From Neolewinella litorea (lineage in GTDB: Bacteria > Bacteroidota > Bacteroidia > Chitinophagales > Saprospiraceae): 64,000 nt of DNA. A program made the position numbers and the translations under genes. The notes below the pieces were generated by a model. The model was not told where the DNA came from, ran no database searches, and saw only the letters and a program-made list of their open reading frames with translations. Each line of letters opens with the position of its first letter. Positions within the stretch are counted from its first letter, which is position 1. The stretch spans positions 1 to 64,000 of the forward strand of contig NZ_SRSF01000006.1 of assembly GCF_004803465.1 (NCBI RefSeq). The letters are read 5' to 3'. This document shows, piece after piece, positions 5,359 through 12,148 of the stretch.

Positions 5359-5400
5359 CCCGGGGGCGGGCCGTCTGAAAAGCGGTCCGCCCCCGGTTTT
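5359..5400 (+). terminator. Intrinsic terminator of the beta-helix gene
   Basis: CCGGGGGCGGGCC pairs with GGTCCGCCCCCGG across a loop of about 11 bases, followed by TTTTA. It lies 23 bases after the stop codon. Confidence 0.9.
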
Positions 5401-5484: not shown

Positions 5485-5492
5485 TAACTTTG
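5485..5492 (+). promoter_or_regulatory. Promoter -7 box of the arginine operon
   Basis: TAACTTTG fully matches TAnnTTTG. The nearest TTG (5470-5472) is too close (12 bases) for a standard -33 element. With the box at about -11 to -4 the transcript would start near 5496, next to the ATG of the small arginine-rich frame at 5497. The first enzyme gene starts 150 bases further on. Confidence 0.6.
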
Positions 5493-5496
5493 CCGC

Positions 5497-5544
5497 ATGC
5501 AACAGGTACCGCCCAGCATCCGCCTACTCAGGCGAAGGATTTAA
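5497..5544 (+). CDS. Candidate arginine-operon leader peptide (15 residues)
   Basis: The frame ATG...TAA encodes MQQVPPSIRLLRRRI: four arginines in 15 residues, three of them consecutive and written AGG CGA AGG, codons that seem uncommon beside the CGC/CGG used in neighbouring genes. It lies between a consensus -7 box and the first gene of the arginine biosynthesis operon. A small hairpin, CGCCT ACTC AGGCG (5521-5534), falls exactly on the Arg codons, and a second, GGCACT TC AGTGCC (5572-5585), follows the stop. A ribosome stalling on Arg codons when charged Arg-tRNA is scarce would melt the first hairpin. Attenuation is an inference; no strong terminator is visible, only a weak GC stem and TTTTT (5637-5641) just before the first enzyme gene. 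Confidence 0.6.
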   Translation: MQQVPPSIRLLRRRI

Positions 5545-5645
5545 TACGCTTCCCGCTACGGCCCGGAAGCCGGCACTTCAGTGCCCGACGCAGTACCCTC
5601 CCCCTTCATTTTGACTACCCGCGCGGCGGTCCCTCCTTTTTAGCT

Positions 5646-6224
5646 ATGCAGATTAAGATCCTGGTTGCCCAACCGGAACATACCGTATTCGCTCCGGCCA
5701 TTTGTGCCCTCATTGAAGAATCCGCCAAGGCCCGTGGTACCGGTATCGCCAAGCGTAAACCGGAGTACATCGAGGAAAAGATCCTCAGCGGCAAGGCCAT
5801 CCTGGCCCTGGTCGACGGAGAGATCGGCGGCTTCAGCTACATCGAGACCTGGGAGCACGGCAAGTACGTGGCCAACTCCGGCCTCATCGTGAACCCCGCC
5901 TTCCGCCGTCACGGACTGGCCCGCCGCATCAAGGCGGCCATCTTCCGGTTGTCGCGCACGAAGTACCCCGAGGCCCGCATCTTCGGCATTACCACCAGTC
6001 TGCCGGTGATGAAAATCAACAGTGACCTCGGCTACCGGCCGGTCACCTTCTCCGAACTCACCCAGGACGATGCCTTCTGGGCCGGCTGCAAGACCTGCCC
6101 CAACCACGACATCCTGGAACGCAACCAGCGCCGGATGTGCCTGTGCACGGCCATGATGGCCCCCAGTGCCGTGGAGGCCCGCAAGATGGCGGTGGACCTC
6201 TCCGATATGATCGTGGAGGCCTAG
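5646..6224 (+). CDS. GNAT acetyltransferase, first gene of the arginine operon
   Basis: A 192-residue GNAT-fold protein (MQIKILVAQPEHTVFAPAIC). The acyl-CoA-binding motif is seen as NPAFRRHGLARRIK. A longer frame reaches back to 5490, but that part is not protein-like, so the ATG at 5646 was chosen. The C-terminal part carries several Cys (GCKTCPN, RRMCLCTAM). In Bacteroidota a protein of this type regularly opens the arginine operon where no classical argA/argJ is found, so it probably makes the N-acylglutamate that starts the pathway (acetyl or succinyl). That role is inferred from context. Confidence 0.75.
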   Translation: MQIKILVAQPEHTVFAPAICALIEESAKARGTGIAKRKPEYIEEKILSGKAILALVDGEIGGFSYIETWEHGKYVANSGLIVNPAFRRHGLARRIKAAIFRLSRTKYPEARIFGITTSLPVMKINSDLGYRPVTFSELTQDDAFWAGCKTCPNHDILERNQRRMCLCTAMMAPSAVEARKMAVDLSDMIVEA

Positions 6225-6304: not shown

Positions 6305-7492
6305 TTGAAAAAGATAGTTCTTGCCTACTCGGGCGGATTGGACACCAGCTTTTGCGTCGCCTACCTCACCGAACAGGGCTACGAAGTGCACGCCCTCACC
6401 GTCGACACGGGCGGCTTCTCCCGCGAGGAACTGGCCGAAATGCGGGAGCGGGCCCTGACCCTCGGCGCGGCATCCTACAAAAGCATCGACGTCACCGACG
6501 AATACTACCGGGAATGCCTCCGCTTCCTGGTCTACGGCAATTGCCTGCGCTATCAGACCTACCCTATGTCGGTCAGCGCCGAACGGATGTTCCAGGCCAT
6601 GACGACCGCCCGCTACGCCGTGGAGATCGACGCCGACGGCGTAGCGCACGGGAGTACCGGCGCGGGCAACGACCAGGTGCGCTTCGACCTGGCTTTTGAG
6701 CTGAGCGGCAAGGAACTGGAGATTATCACCCCCATCCGCGACCTGAAGCTGTCGCGGCAGGAAGAGGTGGACTTCCTGGCCGAACGCGGGTTGCAGTGGC
6801 CCGAAAAAAAGGGAACCTACAGCATCAACGCCGGCCTCTGGGGAACCTCAGTCGGGGGCGCCGAGACCCTCACCAGCGACCAGCCGCTGCCGGAGGACGC
6901 CTGGCCGGTACCGGTCACGGCCACCGAGCCGCGAAAACTGGACATTCACTTCCGGCAGGGGCAGATCACCGGGTTTGACGGCGAAGAGTTTGTCGGACAG
7001 GTCGCCGCCATCCGCGCGCTGGAGAAACTGGCCGCACCCTACGGCGTGGGCCGCGACGTCCACGTGGGCGATACCATCATCGGCATCAAGGGCCGCGTGG
7101 GGTTCGCCGCCGCCGCCGCCGTGCTCATCATCAAGGCGCACCACCTGCTGGAGAAGCATACGCTGGGCAAGTGGCAGCTCTTTTGGAAGGAACAACTCAG
7201 CAACTGGTACGGCATGATGCTTCACGAGGGTCAGTTCCTGGACCCCGTCATGCGCGACGTGGAAGCCTTCCTGGAAAGCTCACAGGACACCGTCAACGGC
7301 ACCGTACACCTTACGCTGCACCCCCACCGCTTCACCCTCGACGGCATTACTTCGCCGGACGATCTGCTGGGCGCCGGCTTCGGTTCCTATGGGGAGATGA
7401 ACAAGGGCTGGAGCGGCGAGGACGTCCGCGGATTCACCAAGATTCTGAGCGTCCCCGGTCGCATTCGTAACAGCGTACACCAGGACTCATGA
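6305..7492 (+). CDS. argG: Argininosuccinate synthase
   Basis: Joins citrulline and aspartate with ATP to give argininosuccinate, the penultimate step of arginine synthesis. The protein has 395 residues, normal for the family. The ATP pyrophosphatase loop AYSGGLDTS is at 7-15; STGAGNDQVRFDL and the SINAGLWGTSVGG segment match the Bacteroidota form. The only plausible start is TTG at 6305 (TTG AAA AAG ATA), because the frame upstream of it is unrelated. It follows the GNAT gene after 80 bases and its stop overlaps the argC start (ATGA), pointing to coupled translation. Confidence 0.95.
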   Translation: MKKIVLAYSGGLDTSFCVAYLTEQGYEVHALTVDTGGFSREELAEMRERALTLGAASYKSIDVTDEYYRECLRFLVYGNCLRYQTYPMSVSAERMFQAMTTARYAVEIDADGVAHGSTGAGNDQVRFDLAFELSGKELEIITPIRDLKLSRQEEVDFLAERGLQWPEKKGTYSINAGLWGTSVGGAETLTSDQPLPEDAWPVPVTATEPRKLDIHFRQGQITGFDGEEFVGQVAAIRALEKLAAPYGVGRDVHVGDTIIGIKGRVGFAAAAAVLIIKAHHLLEKHTLGKWQLFWKEQLSNWYGMMLHEGQFLDPVMRDVEAFLESSQDTVNGTVHLTLHPHRFTLDGITSPDDLLGAGFGSYGEMNKGWSGEDVRGFTKILSVPGRIRNSVHQDS

Positions 7493-8478
7493 AGCGGATA
7501 GGAATCATCGGCGGCGGAGGCTATACGGCTGGCGAACTGCTTCGCATCCTGGTGCACCACCCGGAGGTGGAAATTGCTTTCGTGGAAAGCAGCAGCCAGG
7601 CGGGCAAGGCCGTACACGAAGTACACAGTGATTTGATCGGCGATACGGACCTTCATTTTGTCGGGTCCGCGGGTGCCGCGCTTACGGGTGGCGGGGCCCC
7701 GGAAAAGGGTCCGGTGGATGCCGTCTTTCTCTGCATGGGCCATGGCGTTTCCCGGGGGTGGGTAGAATCTCACCGGCCCCGGCAAGGTACTTTGGTGGTG
7801 GACCTGAGTACCGACTACCGGCTCGATCCGGCGTGGGTATACGGCCTGCCGGAAATCAACCGGGAAGCCATCCGCGGCGCCCGGCGAATTGCTAATCCAG
7901 GCTGCTTTGCCACGGCGATCCAGCTGGCCCTGTTGCCGCTGGCCTCCGCCGGCCTGGCCGAAGGGGAAGTGCACGTGAACGGTATCACGGGCAGCACCGG
8001 TGCCGGACAGAGTCCGTCACCCACGACCCACTTCAGCTGGCGCAACGCCAACGTGAGCCTGTACAAGGCCTTCAACCACCAGCACCTGGCCGAGATCAGC
8101 CGTAGCGCCGCGCAGGTTGGCCGCCGGGCGACCGACAACATTCATTTCCTGCCAGTGCGGGGTCCATTTGCCCGGGGTATTCTGGTGACCTGCTACCTGG
8201 ACACCGACCGTTCGGAGGAGGAGCTGCGGCAGCTGTTCCGCGACTTCTACGCCGGGGCGGCCTTCACCCACGTCACCGACGAGGGCATCAACCTGAAGCA
8301 GGTGGTGAATACCAACAAGGGGCTGGTGCACGTCGAAAAGCACGGCAGCAAGGTGCTGGTGACCACCGCCATCGATAACCTCCTCAAGGGGGCCAGTGGC
8401 CAGGCGGTTCAGAACATGAACCTGGCGCTGGGCCTGGACGAGCGAATGGGACTCAATCTTAAAGCCTCCATGTTTTAG
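7489..8478 (+). CDS. argC: N-acyl-gamma-glutamyl-phosphate reductase
   Basis: NADPH-dependent reduction of N-acylglutamyl phosphate to the semialdehyde. The protein has 329 residues. It has a Rossmann start (GIIGGGGYTAGEL, 5-17) and the catalytic cysteine in NPGCFATA (Cys139). The GITGSTGAG segment and a C-terminal LKGASGQAVQNMN also fit. It overlaps argG by four bases (ATGA at 7489-7492) and precedes argD by 40 bases. Confidence 0.95.
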   Translation: MKRIGIIGGGGYTAGELLRILVHHPEVEIAFVESSSQAGKAVHEVHSDLIGDTDLHFVGSAGAALTGGGAPEKGPVDAVFLCMGHGVSRGWVESHRPRQGTLVVDLSTDYRLDPAWVYGLPEINREAIRGARRIANPGCFATAIQLALLPLASAGLAEGEVHVNGITGSTGAGQSPSPTTHFSWRNANVSLYKAFNHQHLAEISRSAAQVGRRATDNIHFLPVRGPFARGILVTCYLDTDRSEEELRQLFRDFYAGAAFTHVTDEGINLKQVVNTNKGLVHVEKHGSKVLVTTAIDNLLKGASGQAVQNMNLALGLDERMGLNLKASMF

Positions 8479-8518: not shown

Positions 8519-9652
8519 ATGCAACTCTACGACGTCTACTCCCTCTATCCGATTGAACCCGTCCGCGGCGAGGGCAGCTACGTCTTCACCGCCGACGGTA
8601 CCCGCTACTTGGACTTCTACGGCGGGCACGCGGTGATCAGCATCGGGCACGCCCACCCGCACTACGTCCGGATGGTCGCCGATCAGGTCGGCAAACTCGG
8701 CTTCTACAGCAACAGCGTGGAAAATGCCCTGCAGCAGGAGTTGGCGGATAAACTGGGGCGGTTGTCGGGTCTGGACGACTACCAACTTTTCCTCGTCAGC
8801 AGCGGTGCCGAGGCCAACGAGAACGCCCTTAAGCTGGCCAGTTTCCGGACCGGCCGGCGGCGGGTGATCGCCTTCCGGGGCGGGTTCCACGGCCGCACCT
8901 CCGCCGCCGTCAACGCTACGGACAACGAGGGCATCAAGGCCCCCATCAACCGCAACTACCCCGTCACTTTTCTGGAGATCAATGACCTGGACGCGCTGCG
9001 CCGGGAACTCAAGAAGGGCGACGTAGCGGCCGTGATCATCGAGGGTATCCAGGGCATCGGAGGCATTCACATTCCCGACGTCGGTTACCTGGAAGCCCTG
9101 CCGGAATTGTGCCACGCTCACGGCACGCTGCTGATCCTGGATGAGGTACAGTCGGGCTACGGGCGCAGTGGCAAATTCTTTGCTTTCCAACACAGCGATA
9201 TCCGGCCGGACATCATCACCGTAGCCAAGGGCATGGGCAACGGTTTTCCGATCGGGGGTGTGCTGATCGCGCCGGAGATTCCGGCTATCAAAGGACAACT
9301 CGGCACCACCTTCGGCGGAAGCCACCTGGCCTGCGCGGCGGGTATTGCCGTACTTGACGTGCTGGAGCGGGAAGCGCTGATGGACAACGCCAGCCGACTG
9401 GGGGATTACCTGCAAACGGAATTGAAGGCCACCGGACGATTTCGGGAGGTACGGGGGCACGGACTCATGATCGGCCTGGATATGGACGAACCGATCGGCG
9501 AACTGCGGAAGAAACTCCTCTTCGAGCACCAGGTATTTACCGGGTCGGCGAAGGATCCAAATACTATTCGGCTCCTGCCGCCGCTCAATGTTGGGCGGGA
9601 AGACTGCGATGTAGTGATTGGTGCGTTCCGGGAAGCCCTGGTCGCGGGATAG
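8519..9652 (+). CDS. argD: N-acylornithine aminotransferase (class III, PLP)
   Basis: Transfers an amino group from glutamate to the N-acyl-glutamate semialdehyde. The protein has 377 residues. It shows class III aminotransferase landmarks: SSGAEANENALKLA (PLP phosphate binding), FHGRT, LDEVQSGYGR (Asp binding the PLP ring) and TVAKGMGNGFPIGG carrying the Schiff-base lysine near 235. It sits in the arginine operon between argC and argF' with short gaps. A role in lysine synthesis (DapC) is also possible, as for many ArgD proteins. Confidence 0.93.
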   Translation: MQLYDVYSLYPIEPVRGEGSYVFTADGTRYLDFYGGHAVISIGHAHPHYVRMVADQVGKLGFYSNSVENALQQELADKLGRLSGLDDYQLFLVSSGAEANENALKLASFRTGRRRVIAFRGGFHGRTSAAVNATDNEGIKAPINRNYPVTFLEINDLDALRRELKKGDVAAVIIEGIQGIGGIHIPDVGYLEALPELCHAHGTLLILDEVQSGYGRSGKFFAFQHSDIRPDIITVAKGMGNGFPIGGVLIAPEIPAIKGQLGTTFGGSHLACAAGIAVLDVLEREALMDNASRLGDYLQTELKATGRFREVRGHGLMIGLDMDEPIGELRKKLLFEHQVFTGSAKDPNTIRLLPPLNVGREDCDVVIGAFREALVAG

Positions 9653-9688: not shown

Positions 9689-10627
9689 ATGAAGAATTTC
9701 CTCTCCGTCCACGACGCGCCCTCGGTCGGTCGGCTCATCGAGCGGGCCGCAGCCATCAAGGCCGACCCCTTCGACCACGAGCGAACCGGGCACCACAAGA
9801 CCCTGATCAACCTCTTTTTCAATCCCAGCCTGAGGACGCGACTGAGTACCGAAAAGGCCGGAATGACGCTGGGTTTCCAGGTGATCACCATGGATATGGC
9901 CGGGGGCTGGAAGCTGGAATTCGAGGACGGGATAGTTATGAATCTGGACCGCGCCGAACACGTGCGGGAAGCGGCCGGTGTGCTGAGCCAGTACTGCGAT
10001 ATCCTGGCGGTCCGCTCCTTTCCCGAACTGGTGGACCGGGACGCGGACTACGCCGACCGGGTGATCAACGCCTTCGTGAAGTACGCCACCGTACCGGTGG
10101 TCAGTCTGGAATCGGCCATCCGCCATCCGCTGCAGAGCCTGGCCGATTGCCTGACGATCAGCGAGCACCGGCGGTCGGCGCGCCCCCGCGTGGCCCTGAC
10201 CTGGGCACCGCATCCGCGCAAACTGCCACAGGCGGTGGCCAACAGTTTCGCAGAATGGATGGTCAACTGGGGTGAGGTCGACCTGGTGATCGCCAATCCG
10301 GAAGGCTTCGACCTGGCCCCGGAGTTCACCGCCGGTGCCGAGGTGGTGCACGATCAGGCTGCGGCCCTGCGGGGGGCGGAGTTCGTGTACACCAAGAACT
10401 GGTCGAGCTACACCCATTACGGGGCAACCGCCGACCTGCCCGGCTGGATCGTGGATGAGGATAAAATGGCCCTGACCGACAATGCTTACTTCATGCACTG
10501 CCTGCCCGTGCGGCGCAACGTCATCGTTTCGGACGGCGTGCTGAACAGCGACCGCTCCCTGGTGCTGCAGCAGGCCAATAACCGTACCTGGGCGGCCGCG
10601 GCCGTGCTGGAGGCTTTGGCGGGGTAG
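9689..10627 (+). CDS. argF': N-acetyl/N-succinylornithine carbamoyltransferase
   Basis: Carbamoylates an N-acylated ornithine, as in the Bacteroidota and Xanthomonas variant of the pathway. The protein has 312 residues. The carbamoyl-phosphate motif is FFNPSLRTR (43-51); HPLQ SLAD and MHCLPVRRN also fit. It aligns throughout with the recalled Bacteroides fragilis enzyme (for example TWAPHPR, QAVxNSFAEWM), so it is not a standard ArgF. At the residue recalled as Pro90 in the succinylornithine enzyme this protein has Ala89 (DRAEHV), so the acyl group it prefers cannot be read from that position. It is the last clear arginine gene in the window; argB, argE and argH are not present here. Confidence 0.9.
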   Translation: MKNFLSVHDAPSVGRLIERAAAIKADPFDHERTGHHKTLINLFFNPSLRTRLSTEKAGMTLGFQVITMDMAGGWKLEFEDGIVMNLDRAEHVREAAGVLSQYCDILAVRSFPELVDRDADYADRVINAFVKYATVPVVSLESAIRHPLQSLADCLTISEHRRSARPRVALTWAPHPRKLPQAVANSFAEWMVNWGEVDLVIANPEGFDLAPEFTAGAEVVHDQAAALRGAEFVYTKNWSSYTHYGATADLPGWIVDEDKMALTDNAYFMHCLPVRRNVIVSDGVLNSDRSLVLQQANNRTWAAAAVLEALAG

Positions 10628-10729
10628 GGGCATGCCCGGAGGTATGTCGGCACGCGACCCGGACCGCCATCAGGCTCGCCGGGGTAGCCGGGTAAATGGT
10701 ACATTGTCGTTCGTAAAGTGAATGTCCCT

Positions 10730-12148
10730 ATGGCCCGCCAACTCCTAGAAACCGAACAGAAAGCCCTCGAAATTAACCTCAACCCCAAGATCTACGGCAC
10801 CTTCGCCGAGATCGGGGCCGGACAGGAGGTTGCCCGACACTTTTTCCAGGTGGGCGCGGCGGCCGGCACCATCGCCAAGACGATGAGTGCCTATGACAAG
10901 GTGTACTCCGACCAGATCTACGGGGTGGAACCCAGCGGGCGCTACGTCTGTGAAAGCCGCATCCACAAGATGCTCGACCACGAGTACGACCTGATGGTCG
11001 ACCGACTGCGGCACGACCGGCCGGAAACCAACTTCTTCGTCTTCGCCGATACGGTGGCCGCCATCAACTACACCCGTACCATCCGGGGCAACGGTTGGCT
11101 GGGTCTGCGCTTCGAACTATCCCCCAACGGCGGACCCAATGACCTGCTGCTCCACGCGCGTATGCTCGACAACGATAACCAGTTGCAGCAGCAGGCCATC
11201 GGTATCCTGGGGGTGAACATGATATACGGTGCCTTCCGCCTGCACGACGACCCCGAAGCACTGGTGGAAAGTCTCCTCGATGGCTTGAAAGGCCGGATCG
11301 CCATCGACATGATGGTGCTGAGTGGAGCGGACTTTTCGGTGGATAACCGTTTGCTCAGTCTGTGGCTGGTGAAGCACGGCCTGACCGACATAACCATGTT
11401 CGACCCACGGGGCCGTAGCATTCACCCCAGTGAGTTCCTGTACAAGAAGGCCGTGATGGTGGTGCGCGGGAGCTTCCGCCCCACTACGCTCGTGAATGCC
11501 GACATGCTGGAATCCGGCTACCGGCAATTCCGGTCGGAGGAAAACATCGACCCCTCGAAGAGTTTCCTGCTGACCGAACTCACGCTGGACAACTTGCAAC
11601 ACAGTTCGGAGTTGAACGAGCGGGACTACCTCCACCGGGCCACCCTGCTCAACGCATTGGGGCAGACCGTAATCATCAGCAACTACCACCGCTACGGCGA
11701 CCTGATCGAGTACCTCTCGCTCTACAAGGTGTCGCCGCTCGGCATCGTAGTGGGGGTGAATGATTTGCTGCAGCTCATCAGCGACAAATACTACGCCAAC
11801 CAGGACGGCCGGCTGCTGGCCGCCTTCGGGGAGATATTCACCCGTAACGTTAAACTGTACGTATACCCGGCGCAGCAGGAGGGAAGTGCCGACCTGATGA
11901 CGGCCGAGAACGTACCGATCCCGGAAGGCGTCAAGTTCCTTTACCGCCACCTCATCGACAGCGGGCAAATTGTGGACATCGAGGGCTTCAACCCCAATAT
12001 CCTCCACATCTACAGCCGGAACGTACTGGAGATGATCCGTGCCGGGGAAGACGGCTGGGAGAAGATGGTCCCCGACCGCGTGGCCAAGTTGGTGAAAGGC
12101 GACTGCCTGTTCGGTTACCCTTCGGAAAAGTTGGAGTTCGAATACTAG
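10730..12148 (+). CDS. Conserved protein of unknown function (472 residues)
   Basis: The protein begins MARQLLETEQKALEINLN and continues with KIYGTFAEIGAGQEVARHFF, a sequence I recognise as very well conserved in Bacteroidota and some other phyla. I know no proven function; names given to homologs are inconsistent and I do not use them. There is no signal peptide or membrane segment, so it should be cytoplasmic. NHR/Asp-rich motifs (VLSGADFSVDNRLLSLWLV, MFDPRGRSIHPSEFLYKKA, ISNYHRYGDL) suggest an enzyme. The start at 10730 was preferred to a GTG at 10718. It follows argF' after 102 bases and may be a separate transcription unit. Confidence 0.85.
   Translation: MARQLLETEQKALEINLNPKIYGTFAEIGAGQEVARHFFQVGAAAGTIAKTMSAYDKVYSDQIYGVEPSGRYVCESRIHKMLDHEYDLMVDRLRHDRPETNFFVFADTVAAINYTRTIRGNGWLGLRFELSPNGGPNDLLLHARMLDNDNQLQQQAIGILGVNMIYGAFRLHDDPEALVESLLDGLKGRIAIDMMVLSGADFSVDNRLLSLWLVKHGLTDITMFDPRGRSIHPSEFLYKKAVMVVRGSFRPTTLVNADMLESGYRQFRSEENIDPSKSFLLTELTLDNLQHSSELNERDYLHRATLLNALGQTVIISNYHRYGDLIEYLSLYKVSPLGIVVGVNDLLQLISDKYYANQDGRLLAAFGEIFTRNVKLYVYPAQQEGSADLMTAENVPIPEGVKFLYRHLIDSGQIVDIEGFNPNILHIYSRNVLEMIRAGEDGWEKMVPDRVAKLVKGDCLFGYPSEKLEFEY

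Follow-up and report, generated by a model that had tools for sequence, protein, structure and literature searches.

The window, meaning the whole analysed stretch of 64,000 nucleotides (contig NZ_SRSF01000006.1, positions 1 to 64,000) of Neolewinella litorea, a member of the Saprospiraceae with a genome of 4.4 Mb, carries a group of arginine biosynthesis genes behind a short arginine-rich frame and a structured leader region. Its features are as follows.

5360-5396, plus strand: terminator-like hairpin with a 15-pair stem, 3' of the preceding gene (terminator scan)
5485-5492, plus strand: -7 box TAACTTTG (TAnnTTTG; motif search)
5497-5544, plus strand: leader peptide frame MQQVPPSIRLLRRRI, stop included (ORF, conserved in relatives)
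5505-5509, plus strand: 5' arm of helix P1, GGTAC, leader codons 3-5 (position-anchored arm tests)
5521-5534, plus strand: helix P2, hairpin CGCC(tactca)GGCG over the Arg codons (RNAalifold)
5548-5570, plus strand: helix P3, GCTTCC..GGAAGC hairpin behind the leader stop (folds and RNAalifold)
5572-5585, plus strand: helix P4, GGCAC..GTGCC, which varies between relatives (folds)
5593-5597, plus strand: 3' arm of helix P1, GTACC (position-anchored arm test)
5598-5645, plus strand: C-rich, G-poor stretch, a possible Rho entry region (C 0.44, G 0.16 over the last 50 nt)
5613-5645, plus strand: weak counterpart of the relatives' hairpin and T-tract, GACTACC..GGCGGTC then CCTCCTTTTT (-5 kcal/mol, no better than shuffles)
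5646-6224, plus strand: GNAT gene, probably an N-acylglutamate synthase of the ArgA2 type (Pfam PF00583, no NCBIfam match; role judged from gene order and from what is reported in PMC7311316 and PMC9026213)
6305-7492, plus strand: argG (Pfam above cut-off; NCBIfam argG models match below their cut-offs)
7489-8478, plus strand: argC (TIGR01850 above cut-off)
8519-9652, plus strand: argD-type aminotransferase (Pfam above cut-off; NCBIfam models below cut-off)
9689-10627, plus strand: N-acyl-ornithine carbamoyltransferase (NF003384 above cut-off)

The nearest named relative of the window GNAT protein is that of Neolewinella marina (98% identical). ArgA2 (BT3761) has been described as a probable N-succinylglutamate synthase with growth defects that are rescued by arginine (PMC7311316; PMC9026213), and the window GNAT corresponds to it, judged from gene order. 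It is thus probably the first arginine enzyme, of the ArgA2 type, and on the strength of this match the leader probably precedes the first arginine step. The regions directly upstream of argB and argH hold no Arg-clustered frame as defined below, for which reason a shared leader immediately before these two genes was rejected. Directly 3' of the arg genes, the window encodes a 476-residue protein (10718-12145) that matches neither Pfam nor NCBIfam.

The box TAACTTTG matches the -7 box TAnnTTTG of Bacteroidota and is separated by 4 nt from the ATG (5497-5499) of the leader frame, which codes for 15 residues and ends at the TAA stop codon 5542-5544; its Arg codons are CGC, AGG, CGA and AGG, the final three being consecutive. 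A first-pass annotation had pointed out the box, the frame, the four Arg codons and the hairpin over them, all of which were confirmed on re-reading the window. In Flavobacterium psychrophilum the box lies at -12 to -5 (PMC9723704), a geometry by which transcription would begin at the first base of the leader ATG, and the arg mRNA of the window is predicted from its sequence to be nearly leaderless. That report gives a leaderless share of 5.5% of the mRNAs considered in F. psychrophilum and describes Bacteroidota mRNAs as devoid of Shine-Dalgarno sequences (PMC9723704). On its other side, the terminator-like hairpin 5360-5396 would isolate the arg transcription unit from the upstream gene. Boxes of the TAACTTTG type by themselves show no enrichment in the window (10 against 12.2 expected), and the leader fold is no better than that of shuffled sequences (z -0.82).

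Conservation of the arginine-rich frame

A frame with three consecutive Arg codons (RRR) stands at the corresponding place in 16 of 16 Lewinella-type relatives (L033-L048) and was found both with and without requiring RRR; the TAnnTTTG box lies just ahead of it in 15 of them, L046 having none. In the window and all eight of its closest relatives (L033-L040) the stretch IRLLRRRI is identical, non-Arg residues included. The main proposal of the first-pass annotation, an Arg leader peptide ahead of the arg operon, therefore stands up to the upstream alignment it had suggested as a check, as the small frame, its Arg codons and the overlying hairpin are kept in relatives.

Over the 17 sequences formed by the window and these 16 relatives, the first RRR codon is AGG in 13 and CGA in 4, a change that takes two substitutions, and the third is AGG in 14 and CGG in 3. 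AGG and CGA are locally rare Arg codons, accounting for 48 of the 51 RRR codons, whereas they make up 36 of the 309 Arg codons counted over 12 ORFs of the window. This rarity may mean little, since helix P2 also constrains the RRR codons and since rare and frequent Arg codons are reported to act alike in the orf34 leader of Salmonella (PMC6386406). The finding that 94 of 94 RRR codon differences are synonymous (28 expected) was dropped as evidence, because the frames had been chosen for containing RRR; what counts is the conservation of RRR, given that no locus among L033-L048 was dropped and that the frames were also found without demanding it.

More widely, a frame was called Arg-clustered if it began with ATG, ran over 10-60 codons with at least 3 Arg in the last 8, and lay at most 450 nt upstream of the GNAT gene. 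Such frames were found in 30 of 64 phylum loci, chosen by hand at about one per genus from 125 genomes; the reverse strand gave 3 of 64, and shuffled sequences 3.0 on average (maximum 6, 30 rounds). The corresponding figures are 16/40 against 1/40 for the family (shuffle mean 1.8, maximum 4) and 48/79 against 3/79 for the named loci, a set inflated by related loci (shuffle mean 3.4, maximum 7). L061 and L189 were too short and were left out, which reduced the named loci from 80 to 79 and the family genomes from 41 to 40; one genome that occurs twice, as L004 and L036, is among the dropped rows. No Arg-clustered frame was found in 34 of the 64 phylum loci and 24 of the 40 family loci, some of which hold other Arg-bearing frames and others nothing recognisable. 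Over 163 non-redundant upstream regions, which were left after near-identical loci between collections had been removed, TAnnTTTG ends 3-9 nt before an in-frame ATG for 29 of 79 Arg-clustered frames (4-8 nt in these 29) as compared with 9 of 1022 other ATGs. With the relatives counted, the leader is thus more than chance would give. That it is translated is suggested indirectly by the RRR run of the Lewinella-type relatives, which is kept while its codons differ.

The form of the frame differs by clade, with IRLLRRRI and RRxRRR in Lewinella types, a terminal RRRP in other Saprospiraceae as well as in loci taken for Flavobacteriaceae, and IPRRR in Balneolaceae. Inspection by eye of six loci taken for Flavobacteriaceae (L127, L129, L138, L139, L141, L144) showed two hairpins in common, the first (CGCCC..GGGYG) carrying the RRP codons and the second, a short one behind it, bearing GTGTCC or GAGTCC; some of these loci seem to hold two tandem Arg-bearing frames. 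Marinifilum/Labilibaculum loci (L075, L076, L078, L081, L082, L084, L096, L097, L102, L107, L111) carry a frame with RRHLRSNCYPGG.DELA, which in L075, L081 and L096 is followed by a strong terminator-like hairpin with a T-run and then by a second frame with RRR or RRRW-like runs. A further set (L079, L080, L085, L091, L092, L095, L104, L105, L119) has, where listed, a leader peptide resembling GFFA..SVF..R..W-RR, that is, more than an Arg run; for L085 only a neighbouring frame is listed and not the GFFA type. This leader is perhaps an arrest peptide.

Leader RNA structure and the region before the first gene

In the Lewinella clade the folded leader often forms a closed domain, in which helix P1, formed between leader codons 3-5 and a segment some 90-120 nt further 3', encloses P2, P3 and P4. 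When the homologous arms are placed by hand, 95 of 102 P1 positions pair over the 17 sequences, the arm variants including GGTATC/GATACC, GCTAAC/GTTAGC, TGCATC/GATGCA and GGTACC/GGTACC. The 10 distinct arm pairs form 54 of 60 pairs against a permuted mean of 43.2; 54 was reached in 5 of 20000 permutations, which is no formal probability as the sequences are related. A full 6/6 partner exists for 11 of the 17 hand-placed arms (shuffle means 1.4 and 1.6), compared with 37 of 226 arms that had been exchanged and 35 of the 595 other 6-mers taken from the frames. Only these position-anchored tests favour P1. When the leader start was searched without restriction for duplexes with the region downstream, P1 did not stand out (native mean -11.9 kcal/mol, against -11.6 across clades, -10.8 on exchange within a clade and -10.2 for shuffles), nor was it predicted by RNAalifold on the plain alignment, perhaps because the 3' arm is misaligned there. 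The covarying hairpins that the first-pass annotation had named as a check were found in part: P2 and P3 show two-sided changes at 5 of 13 predicted pairs, but the RNAalifold covariation term is small (-0.25). A known Rfam element was rejected, as the window and the loci of 12 relatives gave no match at the gathering score to a T-box or other leader.

In the window P1 amounts to five pairs, and the minimum-free-energy fold takes a pairing of ACCGCC (5508-5513) with GGCGGT (5625-5630) instead. It had been proposed that this pairing masks the start of the first gene. The two segments can indeed pair, but the pairing was seen as the preferred fold in the window only and was not found to be general among relatives. 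In addition, 15 nt separate the end of GGCGGT from the ATG, and a hairpin and T-tract take the place of the pairing in 10 of the 17 clade sequences. Start masking by this pairing was rejected on these grounds. In three other loci (L009, L018, L064) inspection by eye found, behind the leader stop, mutually exclusive hairpins TACCC..GGGTA and GGGTAG..CTACCC that share one arm and sit behind a hairpin over the RRP-stop.

Between the leader and the GNAT gene of the window no intrinsic terminator was found, relaxed rules included; the absence of a strong terminator before 5646 was thus read correctly from the start. The hairpin and T-tract of the 10 clade sequences (window not included), detected with relaxed rules, exceeds expectation (shuffled mean 3.3, maximum 7) and ends 14-17 nt from the gene in 8 of them. 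Constrained folding of the 13 of 17 leaders with a nameable hairpin, at equilibrium, gave no terminator/antiterminator switch and no mutually exclusive antiterminator governed by ribosome position, though a kinetic switch is conceivable. In the 12 relatives among them the pre-gene hairpin forms to much the same extent whether the ribosome is missing, sits on RRR or has reached the stop; the exception is L042, where the ribosome raises it from 0.24 to 0.97, opposite to what the model demands; in the window both P1 and the pre-gene hairpin come out at 0.00. As masking by the ribosome changes the hairpin so little, a classical attenuator switch is unsupported. Stricter rules applied to 92 leaders, some of them occurring in more than one collection, gave 22 with a terminator-like hairpin that follows the second half of the frame or overlaps with it (shuffled mean 2.0, maximum 5), and in several of these the stem takes in the end of the frame, stop codon included.

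The last 50 nt before the GNAT gene are rich in C and poor in G in 17 of 17 sequences (C 0.30-0.48, G 0.06-0.16), compared with means of 0.30 and 0.24 upstream of 44 long window ORFs, unverified ones included. At least 75% pyrimidine is reached in 10 of the 17 arg leaders and in none of those 44 partly unverified ORFs, and 13 Balneolaceae loci share the skew (C 0.22-0.36, G 0.02-0.10). Rho is encoded in the genome itself, and Rho-type termination would be favoured over intrinsic termination in the window species.

Other leaders of the genome and the distribution of ArgR

The same genome holds a textbook-like Trp attenuator. Upstream of a trpE-like gene (PF04715; contig C1 near 817103-817546, minus strand, L220), the frame MQNNTRNWWWLSCTLP, with WWW, begins four bases behind TACCTTAG and is accompanied by a terminator-like hairpin of 12 pairs. 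Ahead of hisG (contig C34 near 339181-339720, minus strand, L219) stands the leader MILGVHHHHLCLPCPSASDQVVR, with HHHH, followed by a 14-pair terminator-like hairpin; its ATG directly abuts the last base of a tRNA-Phe gene, and the two may lie on one transcript. Given these trp and his leaders, both with strong terminator-like hairpins, the genome appears to make use of leader peptides, while the arg leader seems to have a different kind of ending.

A repressor of the ArgR type (PF01316) has no match in the genome, and control by ArgR was rejected for it. PF01316 likewise gave no match in any of 100 family genomes, with 9 of 14 control genomes positive, and gave matches in 110 of 296 sampled phylum genomes. 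The first-pass statement that the phylum otherwise lacks well-described arginine control therefore agrees with the family but not with the phylum. The GNAT type of the window occurs in at least 125 of the 296 genomes, a lower bound because distant ArgA2 proteins were possibly missed, and coincides with ArgR in four, the PF01316 match being weak in two of these (G129, G151). In G325 and G333 the gene order is argR-GNAT-argG-argC-argD, with a GNAT 52-56% identical to that of the window, and neither the 520 nt ahead of argR nor the span between argR and GNAT yielded an Arg-clustered frame. In six further ArgR genomes that were inspected, the argG next to ArgR is a different one (30-32% identical). 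These arrangements suggest that regulators have been exchanged, leader against ArgR; the pattern follows lineage, so that the rarity of the coincidence was not counted as independent evidence. Regions upstream of ArgR in other genomes (20 regions, G325 and G333 having been examined separately) gave an Arg-clustered frame in four cases, a background above zero; to judge from their shared GRAW/GQAW runs, these four would be another gene read in the wrong frame.

Proposed mechanism and competing explanations

We consider it likely that Arg-dependent stalling of the ribosome in the leader peptide controls premature termination before the arg operon, possibly by Rho. A nearly leaderless mRNA starting at about 5497 would be translated at once into the 15-residue peptide, the end of which is mostly Arg. 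With Arg-tRNA scarce the ribosome would wait on AGG, CGA and AGG, with ample arginine it would finish the leader and leave, and its occupancy would set the passage of RNA polymerase into GNAT-argG-argC-argD-argF'. The terminating state would be the free folded leader, with P1 closing P2-P4 and followed by the C-rich stretch or by the hairpin with T-tract. The sequence basis of this proposal consists of the conserved frame with its changing Arg codons, the promoter spacing, the covariation of P1 and to some extent of P2 and P3, the operon content and the lack of a PF01316 match; from these we infer that the leader is translated, that ribosomes stall on it, in which direction the operon responds and that the output is termination.

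Competing explanations differ in what senses arginine and in what is controlled. The ligand could be free arginine (or ornithine), which together with the nascent peptide would halt the ribosome on the stop codon or close to it, in the manner of TnaC or SpeFL, without Arg-tRNA being the sensor. The Arg codons near the stop in several clades (RRRI*, RRRP*, IPRRR*), the IRLLRRRI stretch kept with its non-Arg residues and the lack of an intrinsic terminator in the window would all suit such a peptide. Arrest peptides usually keep spaced critical residues, however, while the leader has only 15 residues and those outside the Arg run vary between clades, which makes this explanation rather unlikely. 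Leader translation might also act on access to the GNAT start or on RNA decay, with no premature termination involved. Consistent with this, P1 overlaps early leader codons, no switch was seen at the terminator-like hairpin, and translation of orf34 in Salmonella is reported to act additionally on RNA decay by RNase G and on the ribosome-binding site of speF, which becomes masked (PMC6386406). Since the 17 folds share no pairing over the GNAT start and the hairpin with T-tract before the gene exceeds its shuffled controls, control of translation or stability is regarded as unlikely.

That the RNA itself senses arginine as a riboswitch, the frame being incidental, would fit the recurrence of P1-P3 in the Lewinella clade but not the retention of Arg through varying codons (AGG, CGA, CGG), the recurrence of Arg-clustered frames in clades with different-looking leader RNA, or the empty Rfam search, and is very improbable. 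Taken alone, a box and a 15-codon frame are unremarkable, and neither the box count nor the fold of the window departs from expectation; against the conservation, the strand and shuffle controls and the promoter spacing, a short Arg-containing frame arising by chance and lacking function has a negligible probability.

Stalling on the Arg codons, the preferred explanation, belongs to a known kind of regulation, ribosome-mediated control by a leader peptide. Like the trp and his attenuators, the arg leader has a short frame of end-product codons between promoter and first gene, with a hairpin over the control codons; unlike them, the window leader concerns arginine, has no strong terminator and no detected switch, and has a long-range helix that uses early leader codons. 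TnaC is Rho-dependent, with arrest at a Pro-stop. It resembles the window leader in having no intrinsic terminator and then a C-rich stretch, and several relatives of the arg leader end in RRP-stop. To our knowledge, the nearest known arginine-codon leader is orf34/SpeFL before speF. TnaC would differ from the arg leader in its signal, having been reported to be stalled by free tryptophan (PMC8429421). SpeFL/orf34 shares with the arg leader consecutive rare Arg codons and long-range leader helices, and its Rho-dependent termination is a further likeness insofar as the output of the arg leader is of the Rho type, as we infer (PMC6386406). It differs in controlling an ornithine decarboxylase, in its 34 codons, in its HIRRT core and in a frame that starts at +32 of the mRNA (PMC6386406), whereas the window leader is predicted to start at the 5' end of its mRNA and precedes GNAT-argG-argC-argD-carbamoyltransferase rather than speF.

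Within the phylum, 'strong clues' for leader peptides before amino-acid biosynthesis operons have been described in F. psychrophilum, with structured elements named upstream of pheA and hisG and no arginine operon named in the parts of the report cited (PMC9723704). An arginine version in Bacteroidota, that is, an arginine leader before an arginine operon, was not recognised in searches of the open literature, although a 2010 attenuator survey by Lopatovskaya and colleagues, as cited in PMC4833913, may cover the phylum. Tentatively, and with less confidence than for the window, a wider role is conceivable: across much of Bacteroidota, apart from the lineages that carry ArgR, arginine synthesis might be controlled by an Arg leader peptide placed 5'-terminally on a nearly leaderless mRNA, at the operon head where argR stands in two genomes, with a Rho-type output and with P1 closing over the leader start after departure of the ribosome.

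Taken together, the proposal offers a testable answer to how Bacteroidota without an arginine repressor regulate arginine synthesis. If it is true, arginine would join those amino acids for which leader translation serves as the readout of the operon that makes them, and the predicted arrangement suggests that regulation in Bacteroidota can enter at leaderless initiation.
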